From: Acidobacteriaceae bacterium
GTDB lineage: Bacteria > Acidobacteriota > Terriglobia > Terriglobales > Acidobacteriaceae
Length of the DNA stretch: 64,000 bases
Reading direction: 5' to 3'
NCBI GenBank assembly: GCA_003134995.1
Contig: PLDC01000014.1
Span: forward strand, 62,001-126,000
The notes under the pieces were generated by a model. That model saw nothing but the letters and a program-made list of their open reading frames with translations. It was not told the origin of the DNA and did no database searches. Position numbers and translations under genes: made by a program. Below, piece after piece: positions 1 through 39,741 of this stretch; position 1 is the stretch's first letter, and each line of letters opens with the position of its first letter.

Positions 1-1497
1 GTCCTGCACATTGGTGAGGTCGGCGCTCACCTGAATCGTGTCCCCATGCTGCACCACCCTGCCGGTAAGCAACGCGTCGACGGTTAACTCCTTGCCAACT
101 TTTTCCACGTCTACATCTTTGCCTTTGTAACGGAAAACGGAGTTGCGGGATTTCACTTTCAAGTCTGGCACATGGGCGAGGCTGGCGATTAAAGATTCAG
201 TGAGGCCGTCGCTGAGCAGATCAGTATCCGCGTTGCCGCCCACGTTCGAGAACGGAATCACTGCGATCGATTCGACTTGCGAAGTTGAAGACCTGCCTCG
301 CCAATACCAGATGCTGCCTGCTGCAATCGCGATCAGCAAGATGGTCACGGCTGCGATCCAATACTTGCGGCCCGAGGTTGCCAGGCTTGCGGCCGGCAAT
401 ACTGTAACGGACGATCCCGATCGACTGCCCGGCGTAAGGCCCGAAGTTAAATCGGCAGCCGACGCGGAACCTGAACTCGCCGCCACCGGCTGCCCCGAAG
501 CAGAAGGCGCTGCTGTCACCGAAGCTGACCCTGAAGCCGGCGTCGTCACCGCAGTGCTCGCACTCACCCCAGAACTTCTTCCGGAATCAAGCTCGCGCTT
601 CAGCCGCTTCAAATCGGCGCGCATCTCCGAGGCCACCTGATAGCGCAGGTCGCGATCTTTCTCGAGAGCCTTGTTGATGATGCGCTCCAACTCCGCCGGC
701 AAATTAGGATTCAGCCGCACCGGCGCAGTGGGCGCGCGATTCAGAATCGCGTCAAAGATCACAGCTGAAGTATTGCCCGTGAACGGCTGCTTGCCCGTCG
801 CCGCTTCATACAGCACAGCGCCAAAAGAAAACAGGTCGGTGCGCACATCGAGTTCTTCGCCGCGCGCCTGTTCCGGCGACATATAAGTGACCGTGCCCAC
901 CGTGCTACCCGGACTGGTAAGGTTCGCAGGATCGACCGCAGCTGTCGCCAGAGTCACTCCCGCAAACTCGTAATTTGTCTGGGACGGTCCCGCCACTTTC
1001 GCCAGACCGAAGTCGAGCACCTTCGCCTGCCCGCGTTTTGTGATGAACAGGTTTGCCGGCTTGATGTCGCGATGAACAATTCCCGCAGTGTGCGCGACAT
1101 CCAGCGCGTCGGCAATCTGCACGCCGAAGTCGACTAACTGCTCTACCGAAATCGGCTTGCCCTCGATGCGGTATTTCAAAGTTGTGCCTTCGAGGTACTC
1201 CATCACAAGGTACTGCCGCGCTTCATCCGGGCGACCTCCAGCACGATCTTCGCCGATGTCGTAGATGGTGCAGATATTGGGATGATTGAGAGCCGACGCA
1301 GCCTGAGCCTCGCGCCGAAATCGCTCCAAAGCCTGAGGGTCATTCGCCACGTCATCAGGCAGAAACTTCAGCGCGACAAAACGGCGCAGTCGGGTGTCCT
1401 CAGCTTTGTAAACCACGCCCATGCCGCCGCCACCTAGCTTTTCAACAATGCGATAGTGCGAGATGGTTTGGCCAATCATGCTCTGGTTGGTCGTCAT
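1..1497 (-). CDS. Ser/Thr protein kinase, membrane-anchored (C-terminus beyond window)
   Basis: The 499 visible residues start with a complete Hanks-type kinase domain: glycine loop [10 protein letters not shown] (22-31), VALK lysine, HRDIKPAN catalytic loop and DFGLAK. A Ser/Ala-rich juxtamembrane stretch, one membrane helix (about 380-399) and the start of a TolB/FlgO-like periplasmic segment ([12 protein letters not shown]) follow. By analogy to its upstream paralog a TPR region should lie beyond base 1. The start codon forms an ATGA overlap with the stop of the upstream kinase gene, so translation is probably coupled. The cytoplasmic domain should phosphorylate Ser/Thr; its ligand and targets are unknown. 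Confidence 0.93.
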
Positions 1498-3923
1498 GGT
1501 CTGGCCTCGTCCGCAGTTGGCGGAAGTCCTATCTTGCGCACCAGTTCGGCATAGCGCGGATCGGTGCGCAATGAATCCATGGCAAAATCGGTCGGAAGCT
1601 CGATTGTGTTGGTATCGTGCTCCTGATAGGCGGTGTTGAGCCATTGGAAGGCATGGTCCTTGTCGCCCGAATCAGCGTACATTTGCGCAATCAGGTAAGG
1701 ATAAACGTAGCCACCCGACCGTTTGCGCTGCGCGAGCCAAACTTCGAGGCCCTTGCGCTCGGCGACATTCCATCCACCAGCGCGAAATCCCGCATCAATG
1801 GCTGACGCCCACTCCATGTAATTCTTGTCGCCCTCCAGCTTGGAAGCCTTATCCCACTCCTCGATGGCCTCGGGATACTTGCGCATCCCCCAATACGCGT
1901 TAGCCATCTCGCCATGGGCACGGCCAAAGGATGGATTGTCAGCGATGACCTTCTTGTAAATTTCAATCGCCTTATCAAATTGGCGGGCATAAGCGTAAGC
2001 CTGAGCCTCTTGCGCTGCGATGATCGGCGAGAGCGGATCGAGTTGATGAGCGCGTGTGCCTTCATCAATGGCATCCTGCGCCCGGCCGCCAATTTCACAC
2101 AGTCCCTCGGAGAGCCACTGATGCGCAGTGGCGTCGCTGGGATCAAGCTCCAGCGCCTTTCTGAACTCGGCCTCGCCCCCGGCGAAGTCCCAACTGTATT
2201 CCATCATCTGTCCGCCTAAAACAGCGTGCGGATGAGCAAGCGTGGGGTCAAGCTCCAACGCCTTTTTGGCTGCAGCGATTCCTTTCAACGCGGTTTCGGT
2301 GGGATCGCCGCCGTAGCTGCTGAGCGTGGTGTATGCGTCGGCAATACCGGAGTATGCCAGGGCATAATTGGGATCTTTTTCGAGCGCCTGGTTGAACAGC
2401 GATATTGCGGTTTTGATGTCGGCGTTCGTCCGCTTATCCCAATAGAAGCGGCCCTTCACGTAGAGCTGGTAGGCTTCCGGATTCTGCGTGCCCTGTTTCG
2501 TGACCAGTTGCTTATCCGCGCCCGTCAACTTGGCGCGCAGTTTGTCGGCAATATCGCCGGCGATCTGCTGCTGCAACGTGAGAATGTCGGAAGCTTTCCG
2601 TTCGTACTGCTCGCCCCAAAGTGCGGTATTGTCCCGCACATTAATCAGCTCGGCGCCAACCTGAATCGAATCTCCGTGCTGCACCACCCGGCCGGTGAGC
2701 AGCGCGTCAACGATCAGTTCCTTCCCAACTTGTTGGACGTCGACGTCTTTATTTTTATAGCGAAACACCGAGTTGCGCGATTTCACCTTGAGGTCAGGAA
2801 TATGTGCAAGGCTCGCGATAATCGACGCCGTGAGGCCGTCGCTGAGCAGATCGGTGTCGGCGTTGCCTCCGGAGCTGGCGAAGGGGATGACGGCGATGGA
2901 ATCGATTTGCGAGGCGCTTGCTTTGGCGTTCGTGCGCCAGTACACGACGCCGGCGGCGGCAAGCAAAGCCAGTACCACAACGGCTGCCGCGATGCCGTAC
3001 TTACGAGCCGAACTCACCGGGGCCGCAGCAGCGGCCGCCGGAACGGACTTGCCCGATTCGCTGTCGCGTTTCAGCCGCTGCAAGTCCGTCCGCATATCCG
3101 AGGCGTGCTGGTAACGGAGTTCGCGGTCTTTCTCCAACGCTTTGTTAACTACATCTTCGAGCTTTGGCGGAAGATCGGGATTCAGGCGAACGGCCGGAAC
3201 CGGCGCCTTGTTGAGAATGGCGTCGAAGATTGTGGCAGTGCTTTCTCCGCGAAACGGCGACTGCCCCGTGGCCATCTCGTAGAGAACAGAGCCGAAAGAG
3301 AAAATGTCGGTGCGGACGTCGAGTTCTCGCGCCCGCGCTTGTTCCGGCGACATGTAACACACAGTGCCGAGCGTGGAACCAGGACTAGTCAAATGTTCTT
3401 CGACCGCAGTCATCGTGTCGGCTGAGGCGACTTGACTTGACGAACCGGAAGGCGTCCCGACCTTCGCCAGCCCGAAATCCAAAATCTTGGCATGTCCGCG
3501 TTCAGTGAGAAAGATATTGGCTGGCTTAATGTCCCGATGCACAATGCCCTTGGAGTGCGCGGCGTCCAGGGCGTCTGCGATTTCGATGGCGAGGCCAAGC
3601 AAGACGTCGGTATCCAGCGGCTTTCCGCCGATGCGATGCTTCAGCGTCCTGCCCTCCAGATACTCCATGGCAATGAACGCGGCAGCTTCTTCTTCGCCGA
3701 TATCGTAGATGGTGCAAATATTGGGATGGTTCAGCGCGGAAGCGGCCTGGGCTTCGCGCTTGAAACGGGCCAGCGCCTGAGGATCGCGCGCAAGTTCGTC
3801 GGGCAAGAATTTAAGGGCAACGAAACGCTGCAGGCGAGTGTCTTCCGCTTTGTAAACCACGCCCATCCCGCCGCCGCCGAGCTTTTCAACAATGCGGTAA
3901 TGGGAGATGGTTTGGCCGATCAT
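1494..3923 (-). CDS. Ser/Thr protein kinase with TPR sensor region
   Basis: 809 aa. Kinase domain at about 9-285 with [10 protein letters not shown] (16-25), Lys38 in VALK, HRD (129-131) and DFG (149-151), all residues needed for activity. A single membrane helix at about 309-328 is followed by a TolB/FlgO-like domain (SIAVIPF at 342) and, from about residue 480, several TPR units (for example [19 protein letters not shown]). The topology implies a cytoplasmic kinase and an extracytoplasmic protein-binding region. It is a paralog of the downstream kinase and probably shares its mRNA (ATGA overlap). The about 240 bases upstream, before the next gene, would hold the promoter. Confidence 0.95.
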
Positions 3924-4161
3924 CTGGGGTCGATGGTTCTTGCTCGATTCGCGCAGACGCCCTCTGCGGGTCGATTCATCTTACGGACGAGGACTCCGCA
4001 CGTCAACGAACGAGAGCTTGCTCAGAGTTTTAGCCGTCAATAACAAACGAACTCGAGACACAGCACGCGTGCAGGGCAAAAATATCGATCCTAAAGGCGA
4101 GTTTGCGGAGATCAAGGCGGGAGCGCAGCCCGAAATCCGACATTATTCGAGGTCCGCTGAC

Positions 4162-4599
4162 TCATGCCCGAGTTGTCAAAGGTTGCGAACGATAGCCCTT
4201 GGTTGCCTCTGGCCGCTCTGACACAAGCACGATCGCTCCCTCGGCCCGCGGAAAATGTTGAAGCAGTCGAATCTCACCAAGAGGTATCTGCAAAGCCTCC
4301 AATGTAGCAACGAGGGTATCGGATGTTGGAAGAACCGACACTCTCTCCAACTTGTGAGCATTGTCCCGAGTGAGGTGCTTCAGGAGAACTGTCGTTATCG
4401 CAGGAATTGTGGCATTCAGCCCTCCGCGATCAATCCAAGGAGCACTTAGCACCAAGTTCCATCTGTCGCTCAATCCCGTTTCTGAGGGCACTAACATAGC
4501 GAGGGAAAAGTCGCGGTTCTCTCCAATCATTTGTTGGAGAGACATGACCACCTGCTTCACCAGAGGGGTTGGGTTTGTTACCAGCGTCGTGAGAGCCAT
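4162..4599 (-). CDS. hypothetical protein, downstream partner of HEPN protein
   Basis: 145 aa, no recognised family. It has mixed alpha/beta character with a hydrophobic core (WNLVLSAPWID, then GAIVLVSERP near the C-terminus), no signal peptide and no membrane helix. It overlaps the end of the upstream HEPN gene by 22 bases in another frame, so the two are almost surely co-transcribed and may work together. The function is unknown; a toxin-antitoxin-like partnership is only an inference from the HEPN context. Confidence 0.75.
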   Translation of the reverse strand: MALTTLVTNPTPLVKQVVMSLQQMIGENRDFSLAMLVPSETGLSDRWNLVLSAPWIDRGGLNATIPAITTVLLKHLTRDNAHKLERVSVLPTSDTLVATLEALQIPLGEIRLLQHFPRAEGAIVLVSERPEATKGYRSQPLTTRA

Positions 4600-4997
4600 G
4601 TGAAAACTCCGTCAGGTTTCGATGTCAGGCTGTCCAAGATAACCTTGGCTGCATTTGCGTTGTATTTGCCGGGCGCGTCATAACGCTGCTCGGGATCCCA
4701 CTCGACGGCCTTTGACCAATTGTCAAAGAGCGCTTTATTTTTCTTGACGTCGATCTCGGTGGTCAGCCCCGCAAGTACTTTCAGCTGATCGAGGCTATGA
4801 ACCTTAAAAGCCCTCCCGATATCTCCGGCCAGTGGATATTGTTCGAGTCGAAGCAAGCGGCATATTCGAGCCTTAAGCCCAAGCTCCACCGCATACCCTG
4901 CCAGGTAAACACACCCGTCATAGAAATGCGCTTTATAGAGGGCCTGGGCTTCCCGCAATCTCAGGCGAGAAAGCTCCTGCAGATCTTTTCGAGTCAT
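4578..4997 (-). CDS. HEPN domain-containing protein
   Basis: 139 aa. The N-terminal helical hairpin (LRLREAQALYKAHFYDGCVY, then LAGYAVELGLKARICR) is typical of the HEPN family, which includes partners of nucleotidyltransferases and RNA-cleaving toxins. The RxxxxH motif of ribonuclease-active HEPN proteins is not apparent, so this copy may be a binding or antitoxin-type member. SD GGAGG lies about 9 bases before the ATG. It is the first gene of a two-gene unit with the overlapping 145-aa protein. No MNT nucleotidyltransferase gene is adjacent. Confidence 0.82.
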   Translation of the reverse strand: MTRKDLQELSRLRLREAQALYKAHFYDGCVYLAGYAVELGLKARICRLLRLEQYPLAGDIGRAFKVHSLDQLKVLAGLTTEIDVKKNKALFDNWSKAVEWDPEQRYDAPGKYNANAAKVILDSLTSKPDGVFTWLSRRW

Positions 4998-5088
4998 GGA
5001 ACTCGCCCTCCACGTCCACGCTAGAAGTCTAATATAGTCGCTCGGCTTTCTCGAAGCTGGCTTGTTAAATTATGAGGACTGTCGTGTC

Positions 5089-5133
5089 AAAAAACAAAAC
5101 GGCGGAGATTCGCATGCACTGCGAACTCCGCCG
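5089..5133 (-). terminator. Rho-independent terminator of bactofilin gene
   Basis: On the minus strand a hairpin of about 14 bp (CGGCGGAGTTCGCA against TGCGAATCTCCGCCG, loop about 5 bases, one unpaired base) is followed by TTTTGTTTTTTG. It lies about 70 bases past the bactofilin stop and is oriented to end that transcript. Confidence 0.85.
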
Positions 5134-5152
5134 CTGATCTTTTCCCCGCGTG

Positions 5153-5194
5153 AAAGCCGGTCTCGCGCGAAAACCGAAATCGCGAACCGGCTTT
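5153..5194. repeat. inverted repeat just past bactofilin stop
   Basis: AAAGCCGGT and ACCGGCTTT form perfect 9-bp arms, with an inner TCGCG/CGCGA pairing. There is no T-run, so it may be a 3-prime RNA-stabilising hairpin upstream of the true terminator. Confidence 0.7.
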
Positions 5195-5202
5195 ACGACA
5201 AC

Positions 5203-5766
5203 CTACGCGCGAGCGCCCACTGCTGCCGGCTCTGGCGCGGATACGCTTTCATCCTTGCCATTGGGCTTGGACTGATTCTGCGTCTGGGCAGGCGTGCCGC
5301 CCTTGCGGATGTCGATGCCGCCCTTGAAGTAGGCGCCGTCTTCAATCGAGATGCGGGCCGCGACTACGTCTCCGGTGAGCGAACCGTCGCTGCGGATATC
5401 TACGCGGTCGCTGGCCGTCAGGTTGCCGCGCACCTTGCCGAGCACGACGATCTCGCGGGCATTGATGTTGGCCGCGACGACGCCATTCCGGCCAATCGTG
5501 ACGCGGTTGCCAGCCAGGCTGATCGAACCCTCGACCCGGCCGTCGATGTAGAGCGATTCCGATCCGGTAACCTCGCCCTTGATCACCAGCGATTTGCCGA
5601 TCGTGGCCTGGTCCGCGCTAGTGGTGGGCGTCGAGGTCGCGGGACGCGGGCCAACCGGGGCGGGTTCACTCGCCATGGTTGCGGGCATACTCGGGGTAGA
5701 CATGGTTGGACGCTCCGGTTCGGCTGGCCGCCCGGGGGTCTGAGGCTGATTCGTCGGCTTCCACAT
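5203..5766 (-). CDS. bactofilin (polymer-forming cytoskeletal protein)
   Basis: 187 aa. A Pro/Thr-rich flexible N-terminus (about 55 residues) precedes the DUF583/bactofilin beta-helix, a run of short hydrophobic/Gly repeats such as SLYIDGRVEGSISL and GKVRGNLTA, followed by a short tail. Bactofilins self-assemble without nucleotide into membrane-associated filaments that guide cell shape or polarity. The start is placed at MWKPTNQ because AGGAAAGGAAC sits directly upstream; an in-frame upstream GTG would add 20 residues without a better SD. Apparently monocistronic with its own terminator. Confidence 0.93.
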   Translation of the reverse strand: MWKPTNQPQTPGRPAEPERPTMSTPSMPATMASEPAPVGPRPATSTPTTSADQATIGKSLVIKGEVTGSESLYIDGRVEGSISLAGNRVTIGRNGVVAANINAREIVVLGKVRGNLTASDRVDIRSDGSLTGDVVAARISIEDGAYFKGGIDIRKGGTPAQTQNQSKPNGKDESVSAPEPAAVGARA

Positions 5767-6096
5767 GGATGAAAAGTTCCTTTCCTGGTTGGGATTAGGG
5801 ATCACGCGCCGCACTTGCGTGACCAAATCGAATTGTACTCCCCTGTCTCAAAATGAGCGCTGTGGAAAAGCCTTTATTTTCAACATAGTTTCCTAGGTTG
5901 GTACGTCCTCCTGTGTGGGTCAGGACACAGTGACCAAACCTGCTGTCCCTCCCATTTCGACCTTCTCACCGTGTAAGGTTTCCCGAAAAAACTTCGCCAG
6001 GCAACAATTCCACATGCTCCTCGGAGTATGCTCTTGGCTCGTACCTTTCTCGAACTCGTTCGTCAAAGATCTCATCCACTTCGCAGGGAGCACGTT
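5767..6096. other. 330-base region between divergent bactofilin and DinB genes
   Basis: This divergent intergenic region should carry the promoters of both neighbours. I see only a small hairpin (CTGTGT/GACACAG near 5910) and no convincing -35/-10 pair, ORF or RNA gene. Confidence 0.5.
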
Positions 6097-6660
6097 ATGT
6101 CCGACTCAGCCGTCGTCACTCCTCCAGCTTTCGTCATCGCCCGGCCGCAACCCGGCGAATACGCCCCCTACTACGACCGCTACATTTCTTTAGTCCAAGG
6201 CGAAGACATTCTCGACACGCTCGATCAACAGCGCCGCCAGACCATGCTCCTGCTCTCCGGCCGCAACGATGAAGATGGAGACTTTCGCTACGCTCCCGGC
6301 AAGTGGAGCGCGAAGGAAGTTCTCGGCCACGTCTGCGATACTGAACGCATCTTCGCGTACCGCGCTCTGCGCATCGCGCGCGCCGACGCCACTCCGGTAG
6401 AAGGCTTCGAGCAGGATGACTACGTGCGCAATGGACCATTTGCGCAGCGCCCGCTCGCCGACCTCGTAGAAGACTTCATCGCGGTGCGCCGCGCCACGCT
6501 CTCGCTGTTGCGTAATCTCGACGAAGCCGCATGGTCGCGCCGCGGCATCGCCAACAATAATGAAGTGACCGTGCGCGCGCTGGCGTACACCATCGCCGGA
6601 CACGAACTGCATCACCGCAGAATTCTGGAAGAGAAGTACTTTGCCGCGAGTCGTCGATAG
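6097..6660 (+). CDS. DinB-family protein
   Basis: 187 aa. The four-helix DinB/YfiT fold is indicated by APGKWSAKEVLGHVCDTE, with the first metal ligand His78, and by the C-terminal AGHELHHRRIL, which supplies two more histidines. Family members bind a divalent metal and are mostly uncharacterised; some are thiol-dependent transferases. The start MSDSAVV is chosen because GGGAG lies 6 bases upstream. The next gene, also DinB-fold, starts 9 bases downstream, so the two form an operon. Confidence 0.88.
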   Translation: MSDSAVVTPPAFVIARPQPGEYAPYYDRYISLVQGEDILDTLDQQRRQTMLLLSGRNDEDGDFRYAPGKWSAKEVLGHVCDTERIFAYRALRIARADATPVEGFEQDDYVRNGPFAQRPLADLVEDFIAVRRATLSLLRNLDEAAWSRRGIANNNEVTVRALAYTIAGHELHHRRILEEKYFAASRR

Positions 6661-35427: not shown

Positions 35428-36024
35428 ATGTCTGTCAGAGAAAAAGACGACCCTGCCCTATACACGAAAATTCAGGAGCAAAACCTCCTCCGGCAATATG
35501 ACCTGTTATCAAATTGCATCGAAATTGGCCTGAAAAAGGGCATCGAGGCATTCGATAAATACACGCTGTGGGCACTGAACTACGCAGCGGTTTCGAACAT
35601 CTGCCAGCTGGGTGGGCGCTACCGCGAGGGACCTATCAGAGTTGGGAACCACTTGCCACCGCATTTCCACGATGTGCCCAAGCTCATGGATGCGTTCTTT
35701 TCACTCATTCATGAAAATTGGACTATCGTCGATCATCCGACGACCCTTGCAGCGTTTGCCTTGTGGAATCTCAACTGGATACACCCGTTTGTAGAGGGCA
35801 ACGGCAGAACGGCGAGAGCAGCTTGCTATTACCTGATCTGCCTAAAACAAGGGCGAATCCTGGGCGGGAAGAAAACTGTCCCTGAGCGAATTCGTGAGGA
35901 CCGAGCCCCTTATATTGCCGGACTGCAAGCGGCAGACCGCGCCTACGAAAAAGGCCAATACGATGTTACCGAGTTGGCCAAATATCTGGCAGGACTCTTG
36001 AAAGGACAGCTTTCCGAACCCTGA
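35428..36024 (+). CDS. Fic-family protein (AMP-transferase fold)
   Basis: 198 aa. The active-site motif [12 protein letters not shown] (119-130) matches HPFxxGNGRxxR, so the catalytic His is intact. The flap region upstream ([17 protein letters not shown]) and helices fit the core Fic domain. Such proteins transfer AMP or other nucleotide parts to Ser/Thr/Tyr hydroxyls of targets, often as toxins. No inhibitory helix motif is seen within the protein. It probably forms an operon with the 70-aa gene and ends in a terminator. Confidence 0.93.
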
Positions 36025-36104: not shown

Positions 36105-36344
36105 TCATCGGATCTGCGGAATCGCAGGAACTGGCAGGTCCTCTTCTGCAGAGGCGGCCGCGAAGGCAATCGCGGCCTGAACATCCTCAGCCTTCAGGGC
36201 TGGAAAATCAGCGAGGATCGCCTCGATAGGATCGCCAACGGCCAAGCTGGCCAGCACTGTACGAAGCGCAACCCGAGTGCCCCGGAGAGCCGGCTCGCCG
36301 CCGCAAATCTGCGGGTCTCTTACGATCCTGTCCTCGTGCTTCAT
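36105..36344 (-). CDS. DUF433 domain protein (VapB45-like antitoxin type)
   Basis: 79 aa. RIVRDPQICGGEPALRGTRV and the helical remainder (LASLAVGDPIEAILADFPAL, EDVQAAIAFAA) are the DUF433 signature, a winged HTH usually encoded beside a DUF5615 PIN-like toxin. Here the space downstream is only about 80 bases and holds the fic terminator, so the toxin is absent. AAGGG 10 bases upstream supports the start at MKHEDR. Confidence 0.9.
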   Translation of the reverse strand: MKHEDRIVRDPQICGGEPALRGTRVALRTVLASLAVGDPIEAILADFPALKAEDVQAAIAFAAASAEEDLPVPAIPQIR

Positions 36345-36451
36345 CGGCGGATAACCCTTATCCCGAGCCGTCGTCTTCCCGCACATCGTACTCTACCGCA
36401 AACTTAATCTACTTTGACTCATCCCTCCACCCTTTTGATAATCAACAAGTA

Positions 36452-36481
36452 ACCCGTAATCTCATTCGGTGTACCCGTAAT
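36452..36481 (+). promoter_or_regulatory. paired ACCCGTAAT operator boxes over the XRE start
   Basis: ACCCGTAAT occurs at 36452-36460 and again at 36473-36481, exactly 21 bp apart. The second box contains the ATG of the XRE gene. TAATCTCATT and AATGAGACTA also face each other as imperfect dyads. The same box forms a perfect palindrome at 38519-38539. This layout resembles the C-boxes of restriction-modification controller proteins, whose mRNAs are often leaderless. Confidence 0.65.
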
Positions 36482-36749
36482 GAGACTACGGCCCAAAATA
36501 GGTCGTTTGCCAAAGAAAGCAGAACCCGACCTTCGGACCAAATTCGGCCGCCGTGTCCGCGCGCTCCGCGAGGCGCGAGGCCTGACTCAAGAGCAACTGG
36601 CAGAACGAGCTGAGATCTCTGTGGACTTCCTCAGTCTAATTGAACGCGGCCGTAATTCACCCTCGTTTGAGAACCTTGAGTCGTTGGCGCGTGCCCTGGG
36701 ATTGGCTGTAGCTTCTCTCTTCACATTTTCGCAGGCGGATAGCCGATGA
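36480..36749 (+). CDS. XRE-family HTH regulator, C-protein-like
   Basis: 89 aa, the size of restriction-modification controller proteins. HTH: FGRRVRALREARGLTQEQLA, ERAEISVDFLSLIERGRNSP, SFENLESLARALGLAVASLF. No SD precedes the ATG, which instead lies in an ACCCGTAAT box, consistent with a leaderless, self-controlled transcript. Its stop overlaps the start of the next small ORF (ATGA), and a nuclease-like gene follows. The likely role is timing expression of the neighbouring nuclease/methyltransferase genes; this is inference from layout. Confidence 0.88.
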   Translation: MRLRPKIGRLPKKAEPDLRTKFGRRVRALREARGLTQEQLAERAEISVDFLSLIERGRNSPSFENLESLARALGLAVASLFTFSQADSR

Positions 36750-36892
36750 AGCTGAACGGCACCTTCACTCTTATAGACAGGGGACGCATCGCGGAGGGCT
36801 CGGAGTGGGCAGAGTCTCACGGCGCCATTGTGCGCGCGATATTAGCGATGTCGTGGAAGCCGGAAAGCGCGGGCTTTCGAATCCCTCGGTGA
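36746..36892 (+). CDS. 48-aa ORF translationally coupled to XRE gene
   Basis: Its ATG overlaps the XRE stop as ATGA; it reads MKLNGTFTLIDRGRIAEGSE and ends SAGFRIPR. It is short and ends 12 bases before the nuclease-like gene. It may be a genuine small partner or the stump of a truncated gene. No family assigned. Confidence 0.5.
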   Translation: MKLNGTFTLIDRGRIAEGSEWAESHGAIVRAILAMSWKPESAGFRIPR

Positions 36893-36904
36893 CGGTCTGA
36901 ACGA

Positions 36905-37813
36905 ATGGCGAACCCTTACAAATCGCAAGTAATCGAGCTGCTGCGAAAGCGCTTTGGGGAGATACGAAAAATAAAGGGCAGCGAATCGCTGTTCGTGGTC
37001 GGGGATGAAGCGGCGCGGGTCTACTTTCGCTATTCAAAACTTTACCCCGGCGGACGGACGTTTTTTGGGCTCCGCGAGGTCGACCTTCGACAGCTTGAAG
37101 GGCACAATGCGTACCTGTGCTTCCTGCTTGACGACGGCTCGCCTCCCCTTTTCCTCCCCTACGCGGACTTCGAGGAGGTTTTCCACAACGCTGAAACGGC
37201 AAAGGATGGACAGTACAAGGTTCAGCTTTATAAGGACGGTGGGCTGCAGCTTTATGTTGCCCGACAGGGGCGCTTCAACGTCGAGGGATACGTCGGATTA
37301 GGGGCCCTTGAAGGCGCGATGGACCCCGGCCGATTACGTCAAGCCCGAGCGTTGTCGCACTCACAGGTACAGACGCTCCTGGCCGGCATCGGACACTCGA
37401 AGGGCTACGACGTCTGTGTGCCGGAGAGCGACGTCGGCAGACTCGACTGGTCTCTGACGGCGCGATTCCCACTCCGGCCGTCGCCGCCGGCGGGCTTCGA
37501 GCGAGTCCGGGCCATTTTGACGGAGATTGACGTAATGTGGGTGGCAAGCGGCGGTAACAAAATAGAGGGCCTCTACGAGGTCGAACACTCCACCCCCGTT
37601 TACTCGGGGCTCCTGCGTTTCAACGATATTCTCCTGACCGACCCGAAGGTCTCGCGGTTTTCGATAGTGTCCAACGACAGACGGCGCGATTTGTTCTCGC
37701 GGCAGTTGTTTCGCCCAACGTTTAAAAAGAGCGGGCTAGCCGAGCTGTGCAGTTTCCTCGAATATGCAAACGTGTTCGAGTGGCATCAACGTTGCAGGCA
37801 AACCACCGTGTGA
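36905..37813 (+). CDS. predicted PD-(D/E)XK-type nuclease (restriction-endonuclease candidate)
   Basis: 302 aa. The C-terminal half has the layout LSHSQVQTLLAGIGHSKGYD, then LTEIDVMWVASGG, GLYEVEHSTPVYSGLLRFND, and SIVSNDRRRDLFSRQLFRPT. I associate this D...ExE pattern with a group of uncharacterised restriction-like nucleases; the ExE pair recalls BamHI rather than the usual ExK. The N-terminal half is unrecognised. It follows a C-protein-like regulator and precedes a broken methyltransferase gene. The catalytic assignment is inference. Confidence 0.65.
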   Translation: MANPYKSQVIELLRKRFGEIRKIKGSESLFVVGDEAARVYFRYSKLYPGGRTFFGLREVDLRQLEGHNAYLCFLLDDGSPPLFLPYADFEEVFHNAETAKDGQYKVQLYKDGGLQLYVARQGRFNVEGYVGLGALEGAMDPGRLRQARALSHSQVQTLLAGIGHSKGYDVCVPESDVGRLDWSLTARFPLRPSPPAGFERVRAILTEIDVMWVASGGNKIEGLYEVEHSTPVYSGLLRFNDILLTDPKVSRFSIVSNDRRRDLFSRQLFRPTFKKSGLAELCSFLEYANVFEWHQRCRQTTV

Positions 37814-37839
37814 GAAATCCATTACCGGAGGAGGAAATA

Positions 37840-38058
37840 ATGAAGCGCTGGCTTGTCGTTGTTGAGGGTGACATCGAACCTCGACTTGAAGGGCCCTTCA
37901 GGAGCGAAAGGAAGCGAATTGCCGCCGCCAGGGCGCACCGCGAGGATGATCCCGAAAAGCGCGATGGACTATTCGGGCTAGACATCAACGCGTCGGGTTC
38001 GCCCGAGATCTACGCCTTCGCCTCCTGCGAGGTCAGCCCCGAAAACGACGCGACGTGA
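37840..38058 (+). CDS. small hypothetical protein
   Basis: 72 aa, MKRWLVVVEGDIEPRLEGPF onward, ending SPEIYAFASCEVSPEN. A strong GGAGGAGG SD sits 5 bases before the ATG, favouring it over the in-frame start in the preceding gene. An N-terminal beta strand, a basic helix (FRSERKRIAAARAHRED) and a C-terminal beta part suggest a compact soluble fold. Found 26 bases after the nuclease-like gene, probably in the same operon. Function unknown. Confidence 0.72.
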   Translation: MKRWLVVVEGDIEPRLEGPFRSERKRIAAARAHREDDPEKRDGLFGLDINASGSPEIYAFASCEVSPENDAT

Positions 38059-38077
38059 GCCGTGTTCTTAGGAGCTA

Positions 38078-38509
38078 CTACAGGCGCTCAGTAGTCTGGT
38101 ACGTTACGTCTTTGCCGCAGTGTCGGCACGCCTGAATGGGAATGCGCACGGCATCGCGAATCGAAGACGCGGGGCGTCTGGCCTTTGACGTAGTACAGCA
38201 TGCCATAGTGGCTCGGCGATAGTCGGTTTGGTATCGGTCGGCTGTGAGCCTTATCTTCGGGAGGTTGTACACGAAGAGGCTCCCCCCGGGGGCCAACACC
38301 CTGGTGGCTTCCTTTAACCACGCCTTGCTCCATTCAAGGTACTTCTCTTCTGGAAGATCGTTAGACCCTGAGCGGCCATATTTCTTGTTCAGGTTGAAGG
38401 GAGGGTCAGCGAAGAAAGTGTGGACAGAACCGGTCCTTAGCGATTGTAGAACTTCTAGGCAGTCTCCCTTAAAGAGTTGCCCGAGTTCCGTTTGATGGAC
38501 TAATTCCAT
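38078..38509 (-). pseudogene. decayed beta-class DNA methyltransferase gene
   Basis: Starts MELVHQTELGQLFKGDCLEV; motif IV is DPPFNLNKKYG (35-45) and SLFVYNLPK follows. Then the family text continues in another frame (PSHYGMLYYVKGQTPRVFD), shifts back (AVRIPIQACRHCGKDV) and stops. About 35 residues are missing after NLPK, and the entire C-terminal part with the SAM-binding FGGSGT motif is gone. The gene therefore cannot yield an active enzyme. Its start lies 10 bases from a perfect ACCCGTAATA palindrome. Confidence 0.8.
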
Positions 38510-38518
38510 GGTCGTAAT

Positions 38519-38539
38519 ACCCGTAATATTATTACGGGT
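38519..38539. promoter_or_regulatory. perfect 21-bp palindrome with ACCCGTAATA arms
   Basis: Arms ACCCGTAATA and TATTACGGGT are exact reverse complements around one T, 9 bases from the methyltransferase ATG (minus strand) and 8 bases from the HigA stop. The arm is the same box found twice at the XRE start (36452, 36473). Probable binding site of the XRE regulator. Confidence 0.7.
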
Positions 38540-38547
38540 TCGCGCCG

Positions 38548-38853
38548 TTAGCAAGTCACGATTGGTCGTGTGGTGGATGCAACATGTGGAAATCTCGGCA
38601 CCGCCGGTTGCCGTCCCTGCCGCGCCCGCCACAGGTCGTACTGCGACTGCATGTTCATCCACAGCTCTGGCGTAGTGCCCAGGGCGGCCGACAGGCGGAT
38701 GGCCATGGCGGCGGAGATTCCGGCCTTGCCGTTCAGCACGCGCGATAGCGTCACGCGTGTAGTCCGCAGATGGGCTGCTGCGGTGGTCACGGCCAGGTCT
38801 CCCAGATATTCGCGAAGAACCAGACCCGGATGGGAAGGATTGTGCATTGGCAT
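38548..38853 (-). CDS. higA: HigA-family antitoxin (orphan)
   Basis: 101 aa. HigA/VapI HTH: HPGLVLREYLGDLAVTTAAA, HLRTTRVTLSRVLNGKAGIS, and the ending GTTPELWMNMQSQYDLWRAR. AAGGAG 5 bases before the ATG. HigA normally neutralises the RelE-fold HigB toxin, encoded just upstream; here the upstream 350 bases show no HigB frame or its C-terminal motif, so the antitoxin is solitary. It may act as a stand-alone repressor. Confidence 0.92.
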   Translation of the reverse strand: MPMHNPSHPGLVLREYLGDLAVTTAAAHLRTTRVTLSRVLNGKAGISAAMAIRLSAALGTTPELWMNMQSQYDLWRARQGRQPAVPRFPHVASTTRPIVTC

Positions 38854-39207: not shown

Positions 39208-39741
39208 ATGAAGAAGCGGAACAAGCGGAAGCTGAAAATCCCAGACAAGAAACTCCGCGGCGAGTGGGCTGAGATGCATTTCATGGTGCGCGCGACCGAC
39301 CATGACCTGCCGGTGAGCAGGCCTTGGGGAGATTCGAGGAGCTATGACTTTGTTGTGGGATGGCCGGGACATTTTAAGGCGGTGCAAGTGAAATCCACCA
39401 CGTTCGAAGTGGAGGAGGGTTACGTCTGTAGCGTAAGTGGCCACCAGCCGTATCCGCCGGGCTCGTTTGATTTCCTCGCGGCTTACGTTATTTTCGAAGA
39501 CGCCTGGTACATCATTCCTGCGGAAAAAGTTGAGGGCTTAACAAAGCTAACGCTCTTCCCGCAGTCGGGAAGGTCGAAGTACGAGAAGTATCGCGAGGCG
39601 TGGCATCTGCTCCTTCGAGACGCGGACGCCGAGCCGGGACACGTTGATGATATCCAGGGATGCGCGGAGGAATTTCCGACGGAATGGGCTGAAGCCGGAG
39701 CAGAAACATCGTTGCTGACTGACGGCTCCCTCGGAGGCTGA
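39208..39741 (+). CDS. PD-(D/E)XK endonuclease of the PF11645 type
   Basis: 177 aa. KLRGEWAEMHFMVRATDHDL (the helix with the first Glu), SRPWGDSRSYDFVVGW (Asp), and FKAVQVKST (QxK) give the full PD-(D/E)XK active site, followed by DFLAAYVIFEDAWYIIPAE. The family was first described with cyanobacterial group I introns and is common as a stand-alone gene in Acidobacteriota. SD GAGGTGGG. It is bracketed by terminator hairpins on both sides, so it forms an isolated cassette; no intron is recognisable nearby. Confidence 0.85.
   Translation: MKKRNKRKLKIPDKKLRGEWAEMHFMVRATDHDLPVSRPWGDSRSYDFVVGWPGHFKAVQVKSTTFEVEEGYVCSVSGHQPYPPGSFDFLAAYVIFEDAWYIIPAEKVEGLTKLTLFPQSGRSKYEKYREAWHLLLRDADAEPGHVDDIQGCAEEFPTEWAEAGAETSLLTDGSLGG

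Follow-up and report, generated by a model that had tools for sequence, protein, structure and literature searches.

How can a bacterium keep a nuclease gene behind the gene of a controller (C) protein when the methyltransferase of the same locus is dead? The window analysed here is the whole stretch of 64,000 nt from contig PLDC01000014.1 (GCA_003134995.1, Acidobacteriaceae bacterium; contig positions 62,001-126,000), and all coordinates of the locus are window positions (Table 1). Restriction and methyltransferase genes are called R and M, their remnants R' and M', and loci used for comparison bear L numbers. We read the locus as a C-controlled restriction-modification (R-M) locus of BamHI type that was taken over by a foreign nuclease while the C circuit was kept, and give this reading as a whole a probability of roughly 0.7.

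Table 1. Features of the locus in window coordinates; the three operators are predicted from sequence only.
Feature	Position	Strand	Remarks
Left C operator, box ACCCGTAAT with imperfect second arm	36452..36472	+	predicted
Right C operator	36473..36493	+	predicted; spans C start codon
C-like XRE regulator, 89 aa	36480..36749	+	ORF; codon 10, a TTG at 36507, may serve as a later start
R', remnant of BamHI-family restriction gene (48-aa ORF)	36746..36892	+	open; homology 36746-36883, 46 codons; 4-nt overlap with C
Block in place of 3' parts of R and M	about 36884..38104	.	edges inferred from homology ends
PD-(D/E)XK-like nuclease gene, 302 aa	36905..37813	+	open; D209, E225, E227 conserved
72-aa gene	37840..38058	+	open; start is an ATG inside a 103-aa frame
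M', remnant of BamHI-type system's methyltransferase	38105..38509	-	motif IV kept, frame changes mid-gene, motif I lost
C operator before M', perfect 21-bp palindrome	38519..38539	-	predicted

The regulator and its predicted operators

The word ACCCGTAAT occurs four times in the window (36452-36460, 36473-36481 and 38519-38527 on the plus strand and 38531-38539 on the minus strand), as compared with 0.14 copies expected, and none of 100 shuffles reached four. Two copies lie upstream of the regulator gene at a spacing of 21 bp, the second covering the ATG at 36480; taken as 21-mers the two sites abut, and both are imperfect palindromes with six of nine right-arm bases fitting in each, the chance of at least six being 0.01 per site. 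The remaining two form the palindrome at 38519-38539, 9 bp from the M start at 38509, and a perfect palindrome before M together with its arm before C arose in 4 of 5000 letter shuffles. All four boxes, the pair 21 bp apart and the perfect palindrome beside the M start are where the original prediction had placed them, and a genome-wide check found the word not to be frequent elsewhere: the 5.62-Mb genome holds 14 copies versus 17 of the reversed control word, so that the 10 copies outside the locus are background. Among kin loci, L170 has ACTTTAGTCTG in front of both C and M. L133 has a perfect palindrome overlapping its M start that shares nine bases with the C upstream region; the joint box test, which required 7 arm bases, failed at this locus.

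The best PADLOC match of the regulator is HTH_VI (E 2e-16), followed by Control_protein (E 3e-14), and comparison with PDB (37 sequences matched) places DdrOC and ClgR ahead of C.BclI and C.AhdI. As HTH_VI, DdrOC and ClgR outrank the C-protein matches, the identification of the regulator as C rests on its place and its boxes; the nearest of the C proteins compared is that of an intact BamHI-type locus, L170 (45% identity over 65 residues). The window shares with C-controlled type II R-M systems the small XRE regulator before R and the repeated operators before C and M, at which binding is predicted. In such systems the C stop and the R start overlap or lie within about 20 nt, according to the available part of PMC2997769, and the 4-nt overlap of C with R' in the window agrees with this rule. 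A C-protein-like regulator with putative operators shared by the C and M genes had been proposed for this locus, and this part of the proposal holds.

The surroundings of the locus contain several further genes. A Fic/DOC gene (35428-36024, plus strand; E 1e-16) and a DUF433 gene (36105-36386, minus strand; E 3e-20) lie between rpoD and C, giving the stretch the look of a small island. A HigA-family antitoxin gene (38548-38853, minus strand; NCBIfam, E 3e-27) stops 9 bp short of the palindrome, and none of the listed ORFs beside it is annotated as HigB. A 177-aa gene 0.7 kb beyond the locus (39208-39738, plus strand) matches Pfam PDDEXK_5 (E 3e-15) and PADLOC 'homing endonuclease' (E 7e-11).

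Remnants of a BamHI-type R-M system

In a search with a profile built on 11 BamHI-type N-termini, the 48-aa ORF coupled to C ranks first among the 1747 window frames (E 3e-8, the runner-up at 0.063), scoring 30.4 bits as against 14.0 bits for the best of 20,000 shuffles, and again first of the 1747 with a profile of five N-termini (E 1e-5; next frame 0.34). Its alignment with BamHI-type N-termini is gap-free from residue 1. With the Pfam BamHI model alone it reaches only E 0.24 in the whole genome, yet this is the model's best place there. Two of the ten neighbourhoods read around relatives of M', those of L090 and L091, have an intact M convergent with a ~202-aa gene that matches Pfam BamHI (E 3e-42 and 2e-52) and resembles the 48-aa ORF in its first 46 residues. 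Judged by this homology, the ORF retains 46 codons from the start of a BamHI-family restriction gene that has been truncated; no homology extends past residue 46.

M' matches positions 1-53 of 221 of Pfam N6_N4_Mtase only. Its homology runs from 38509 to 38105 with a central stretch (38255-38163) in another frame and ends at CRHCGKDV; everything beyond, including motif I, is missing, whereas intact relatives reach the FGGSGTT motif. Relatives of M' were found in 65 of 396 genomes (its own counted), and neighbourhoods were read for 10 of the 11 best outside its own genome. M' is closest to the M genes of intact BamHI-type loci (E 2e-35 to L133), which identifies it by homology as the methyltransferase of the BamHI-type system. 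It is, to judge from the loss of motif I and the changed frame, dead, as had been claimed. Neither a complete R nor a complete M is present at the window locus, with R reduced to 46 codons and M devoid of motif I, and the suspicion that the locus had decayed is borne out in both genes. Of the other N6_N4 methyltransferases in the genome two are intact, C1 and C18; they have at most 22% identity over 240 residues to an M of BamHI type, and among them there is no sign of a stand-in for M.

The original layout can be read from relatives. A search for PF02923 found matches in 8 of 389 genomes of the class (E 0.001 or better), and all eight loci were read. C, R and a convergent M are present in L170, L171 and L174; L172 has R and M with no C detected, as does L090, and L173 has C and R followed by the end of the contig. 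The remaining three comprise an R with a stop, without C and with no clear M (L169), a piece of R (L175), and C with a piece of R (L176). C, R and M are likewise all present in L091 and L133, the latter on a viral contig. The overlap of C and R measures 4 nt in L091, L133, L171, L173, L174 and the window, and 14 nt in L170. In five of six intact loci the stop codons of R and M are -9 to +7 bp apart (153 bp in L133); the window instead has ~1.2 kb with the 302-aa nuclease gene and the 72-aa gene at this junction. The window thus resembles BamHI-family systems (PF02923) in the N-terminus of R', in an M' of the same kind and in the C/R overlap and convergent M of L091, L133, L171 and L174, but differs in that about three quarters of R, including the catalytic region, and the SAM-binding part of M are gone.

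Two of these loci have features of their own. The M of L091 (4138-5379, minus strand) carries an N-terminal XRE-like fusion, matched by the C query at residues 4-64, and adjoins a separate C gene, and the intact C, BamHI-type R and M of L133 (4759-6653) are located on a 38-kb IMG/VR viral contig.

Taken together, the C gene with its boxes, both remnants and their missing parts, the layout of intact relatives and a nuclease of another family, all visible in the sequence, point to the following origin. The locus would have begun as a C-controlled type II R-M system of BamHI type, with C and R overlapping by 4 nt, a convergent M, two operators in tandem upstream of C and a perfect one upstream of M. 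DNA carrying the PD-(D/E)XK-like nuclease gene would then have taken the place of the adjoining 3' portions of R and M and so inactivated both genes. We consider this replacement by foreign DNA highly probable.

The 302-aa nuclease and its family

The nuclease gene starts 12 bp after the R' stop and is the next complete gene behind C. No Pfam, NCBIfam or PHROG match was found for the protein, while PADLOC REase_II matches it (E 5e-6) together with all nine family members scanned. Eleven aligned relatives are invariant at Q156, G167, D176, I208-D209, E225-V-E227, Y233-S-G and R238, and the nuclease-like D...ExE motif that had been noticed in the window copy is accordingly conserved. A model of the C-terminal domain is fair (pLDDT 73.9, pTM 0.76) and has ID and EVE on adjacent strands, with E in place of the motif K; the model of the whole protein is poor (pLDDT 48.5). 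The best Foldseek matches of the domain model include Can2, YaeQ, Card1, BsoBI and PspGI, none below E 0.001, and sequence searches gave no credible solved relative; a PD-(D/E)XK fold is a candidate for the protein.

The last ~150 residues have relatives in 24 other genomes of 396 and on 89 plasmids, although none of the plasmid proteins matches more than 80% of the protein length; among the matches listed, 7 of 20 plasmid records are annotated as type II restriction endonuclease. Proteins so annotated that carry the EVEH(S/T)T domain have the C-terminal domain in common with the window nuclease, including the invariant Q, G, D, ID, EVE, YSG and R, but differ in the N-terminus. Close relatives alone share the N-terminal ~140 residues, and the N-termini of the remaining members are different. 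This region, where a modified-base reader domain might lie, has no Pfam match; a distant relative has a weak EVE match at its N-terminus (E 0.3), and the available part of a paper on EVE (PMC7641849) contains nothing on the nuclease domain. Comparison of the window and L009 nucleases gave a pS of 0.80, which is saturated, and a pN of 0.19, indicating that the protein has been kept, and all ten nuclease copies are free of internal stops. A phage origin was rejected: there was no match in 50,697 phage records and none by peptide patterns in viral contigs, and an alignment scan returned three distant relatives only. We found no recognised account of the family in the literature, a negative that says little as the family has no name to search by.

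Company of the nuclease in other genomes

A nuclease search of the class gave matches in 28 of 389 genomes (E 1e-5 or better). With the window's own genome excluded, there are ten close relatives, comprising eight full-length proteins, a piece at a contig end (L156) and L009. Nine of the ten adjoin R-M genes or pieces of them, or eight if L009 is left out, where the match is of 21 residues. The density of R-M families predicts 0.06 of nine, and the chance of eight of nine is about 3e-18 if related loci are treated as independent. An intact methyltransferase adjoins the nuclease in L148 only, where it lies upstream with an intact DpnI gene, and a piece of a DpnI 3' end lies downstream. The C-terminal half of a methyltransferase, M2, is downstream of the nuclease in L149 and is 89% identical to an intact M2 elsewhere in that genome, and the N-terminal part of M2 is found upstream in L150, L152 and L155, at 5, 67 and 21 bp respectively. 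A BglII-type R without its N-terminus lies 160-290 bp downstream in L150, L151, L154, L155 and L156, with an internal stop in L151, L154 and L155. In L009 the M2 match (E 0.002) is 120 bp upstream, and a BglII piece is located on the same contig about 12 kb away. M2 traces seen by eye in L151 and L154 were not confirmed by tblastn, and no R-M gene or piece was found beside the nuclease of L153. By contrast, a methyltransferase-like motif, and no more than a motif, occurs in a neighbouring ORF in ~4 of 22 distant relatives of the C-terminal domain (L049, L050, L056 and L063). At L063 (3128-5785) the distant 247-aa relative lies between ORFs with one such motif each (DPPY and FMGSGT).

In L160 a BglII-type R, M2 and a DpnI-like gene stand intact side by side, so that a single entry into such a cluster may account for the contexts outside the window, and the safe count is two settings. 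The row occupies 1054-6439, with a further methyltransferase gene upstream and the DpnI assignment based on resemblance to L148, and combines a cutter of unmethylated DNA with a likely cutter of methylated DNA.

All nine close relatives with downstream sequence have a conserved ~60-aa gene after the nuclease (L152 ends too soon); its profile was built from seven relatives and found the copies in L156 and L009, the latter with a broken frame. The 72-aa gene of the window was considered as a homologue, which the searches did not support, as they gave no detectable match; its one relative is on a Polaromonas plasmid (40%, E 2e-5). With no kinship detected between the two genes, the window does not carry the two-gene unit of the relatives. 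The DNA of L148 and L149 is 88% identical over a segment that begins 30 bp upstream of the nuclease and ends 169 bp downstream of it, and the rest of the compared stretch does not match. The two belong to a single genus, and rearranged flanks around an inherited gene would explain this sharing as well as movement does.

Alternative explanations

The original prediction took the nuclease to be the endonuclease of the window M, and one could accordingly see in it the cognate enzyme of a C-R-M system whose M has died. Its position on the same strand behind C, its restriction-type motif and the PADLOC REase_II match would agree with this. However, the exact place of R is occupied by a BamHI-family remnant, intact C and M relatives pair with a BamHI-type R, and the relatives of the nuclease have no C and other neighbours than the window copy. 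As partner of the window M the nuclease is contradicted by R' and by the layout of the intact relatives; the old partner was the 48-aa ORF, truncated and of another family than the nuclease, and we regard the cognate explanation as hardly credible. With it goes the puzzle of an active nuclease without a protector, which the dead M does not pose since it belonged to a dead BamHI-type enzyme. The nuclease also differs in this respect from type II restriction enzymes with a cognate methyltransferase, having no linked intact one.

More weight attaches to ordinary decay, in which deletions broke the R-M genes first and the nuclease and 72-aa genes came in afterwards by chance, functionally unconnected with C. 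BamHI-type loci have decayed without the nuclease in L169, L175 and L176, which counts against our preferred reading, M' has several lesions, and defence genes cluster. Against this, the block fits the R/M junction, with both remnants ending there, and broken R-M company recurs in nine of ten relatives when 0.06 of nine would be expected (loci taken as independent); we therefore judge chance arrival unlikely. A homing-type nuclease that cuts methyltransferase genes and copies its own gene into them would account for the M fragments that closely abut the nuclease in L150, L152 and L155 and follow it in L149, and for two kinds of M having been struck. The edges of M differ between loci, though, deletions are present on both flanks, and in none of the loci is the nuclease flanked by the two parts of one M, so that the precise insertion between two host-gene parts that is typical of homing endonuclease genes was not seen among the loci compared. 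Homing is for these reasons very improbable.

Control and tolerance of the nuclease

If the locus was taken over as we propose, C would still drive and limit its own operon and so set the level of the nuclease, while the operator before the dead M would merely tie up C. By eye, an AT-rich stretch resembling a -10 box lies just before the nuclease in L148, L149 and L153 but not in the window, where DNA homology to L148 begins one base before the nuclease ATG. This suggests that the window copy may depend on C, and we put the odds that C controls the nuclease at even.

The nuclease would also have to work without a methyltransferase of its own, either as a cutter of modified DNA or with its target protected in some other way. 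That the gene is open beside broken M genes in other genomes makes it the likeliest view that none is needed, although for the claim itself we see the balance as equal. The host would have survived because M, now dead, was the partner of the BamHI-type enzyme, which is dead as well. A modification-dependent (Type IV-like) enzyme would explain survival without M, the sole hint of one being the weak EVE-like N-terminus.

Relation to known systems and implications

The Esp1396I genes are in convergent order, and C binds most strongly at M. The C proteins of known systems first activate their own operon and later restrain it, and Esp1396I has a box before each gene, M included, according to the available part of PMC4824078. 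The window likewise has boxes before C and M, its circuit being predicted from these sites, but differs from the Esp1396I type in that R and M are remnants, an unrelated nuclease stands behind C and the box sequence is another.

There are earlier cases of a foreign gene taking the place of R-M genes. In Helicobacter pylori, hrgC replaced the PabI R-M system, with pieces of M and R left at its sides, and at a second locus it carries a piece of M along (PMC4615327, available part); hrgA similarly replaced hpyIIIR (PMC4687069, available part). As far as these parts of the two papers go, the likeness lies in a foreign gene in place of R-M genes with remnants flanking it, whereas HrgC is a small membrane protein (<100 aa) and not a nuclease, and neither a C protein nor operators were kept. 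Kinship between HrgA and the nuclease was not established from plasmid annotation or literature. New in the present case is that the replacing gene encodes a nuclease, that R and M were lost jointly while the controller and operators stayed, and that broken R-M genes recur as neighbours of the nuclease.

The nuclease family, usually with its ~60-aa gene, is associated with R-M loci and may tend to end up in them; that it is a true mobile module we find conceivable yet doubtful. Still more tentative, and on the unlikely side, is the proposal of a mobile nuclease module specialised in the takeover of type II R-M loci, which would replace the M/R junctions of unrelated systems (BamHI type; BglII/M2/DpnI) and need no methyltransferase, the window copy having captured C and its operators. 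If this were true, a circuit built to time R against M would now regulate a stand-alone nuclease. R-M pairs are regarded as hard to lose, as a cell deprived of M is left open to attack by R; under our preferred reading of a BamHI-type locus taken over by a foreign nuclease, R and M would have gone together, removed by a third gene that left the timing circuit in place. The locus thereby raises the questions of whether an unrelated effector can inherit a C-protein circuit, and whether there is a class of nucleases that spreads at the expense of R-M systems.
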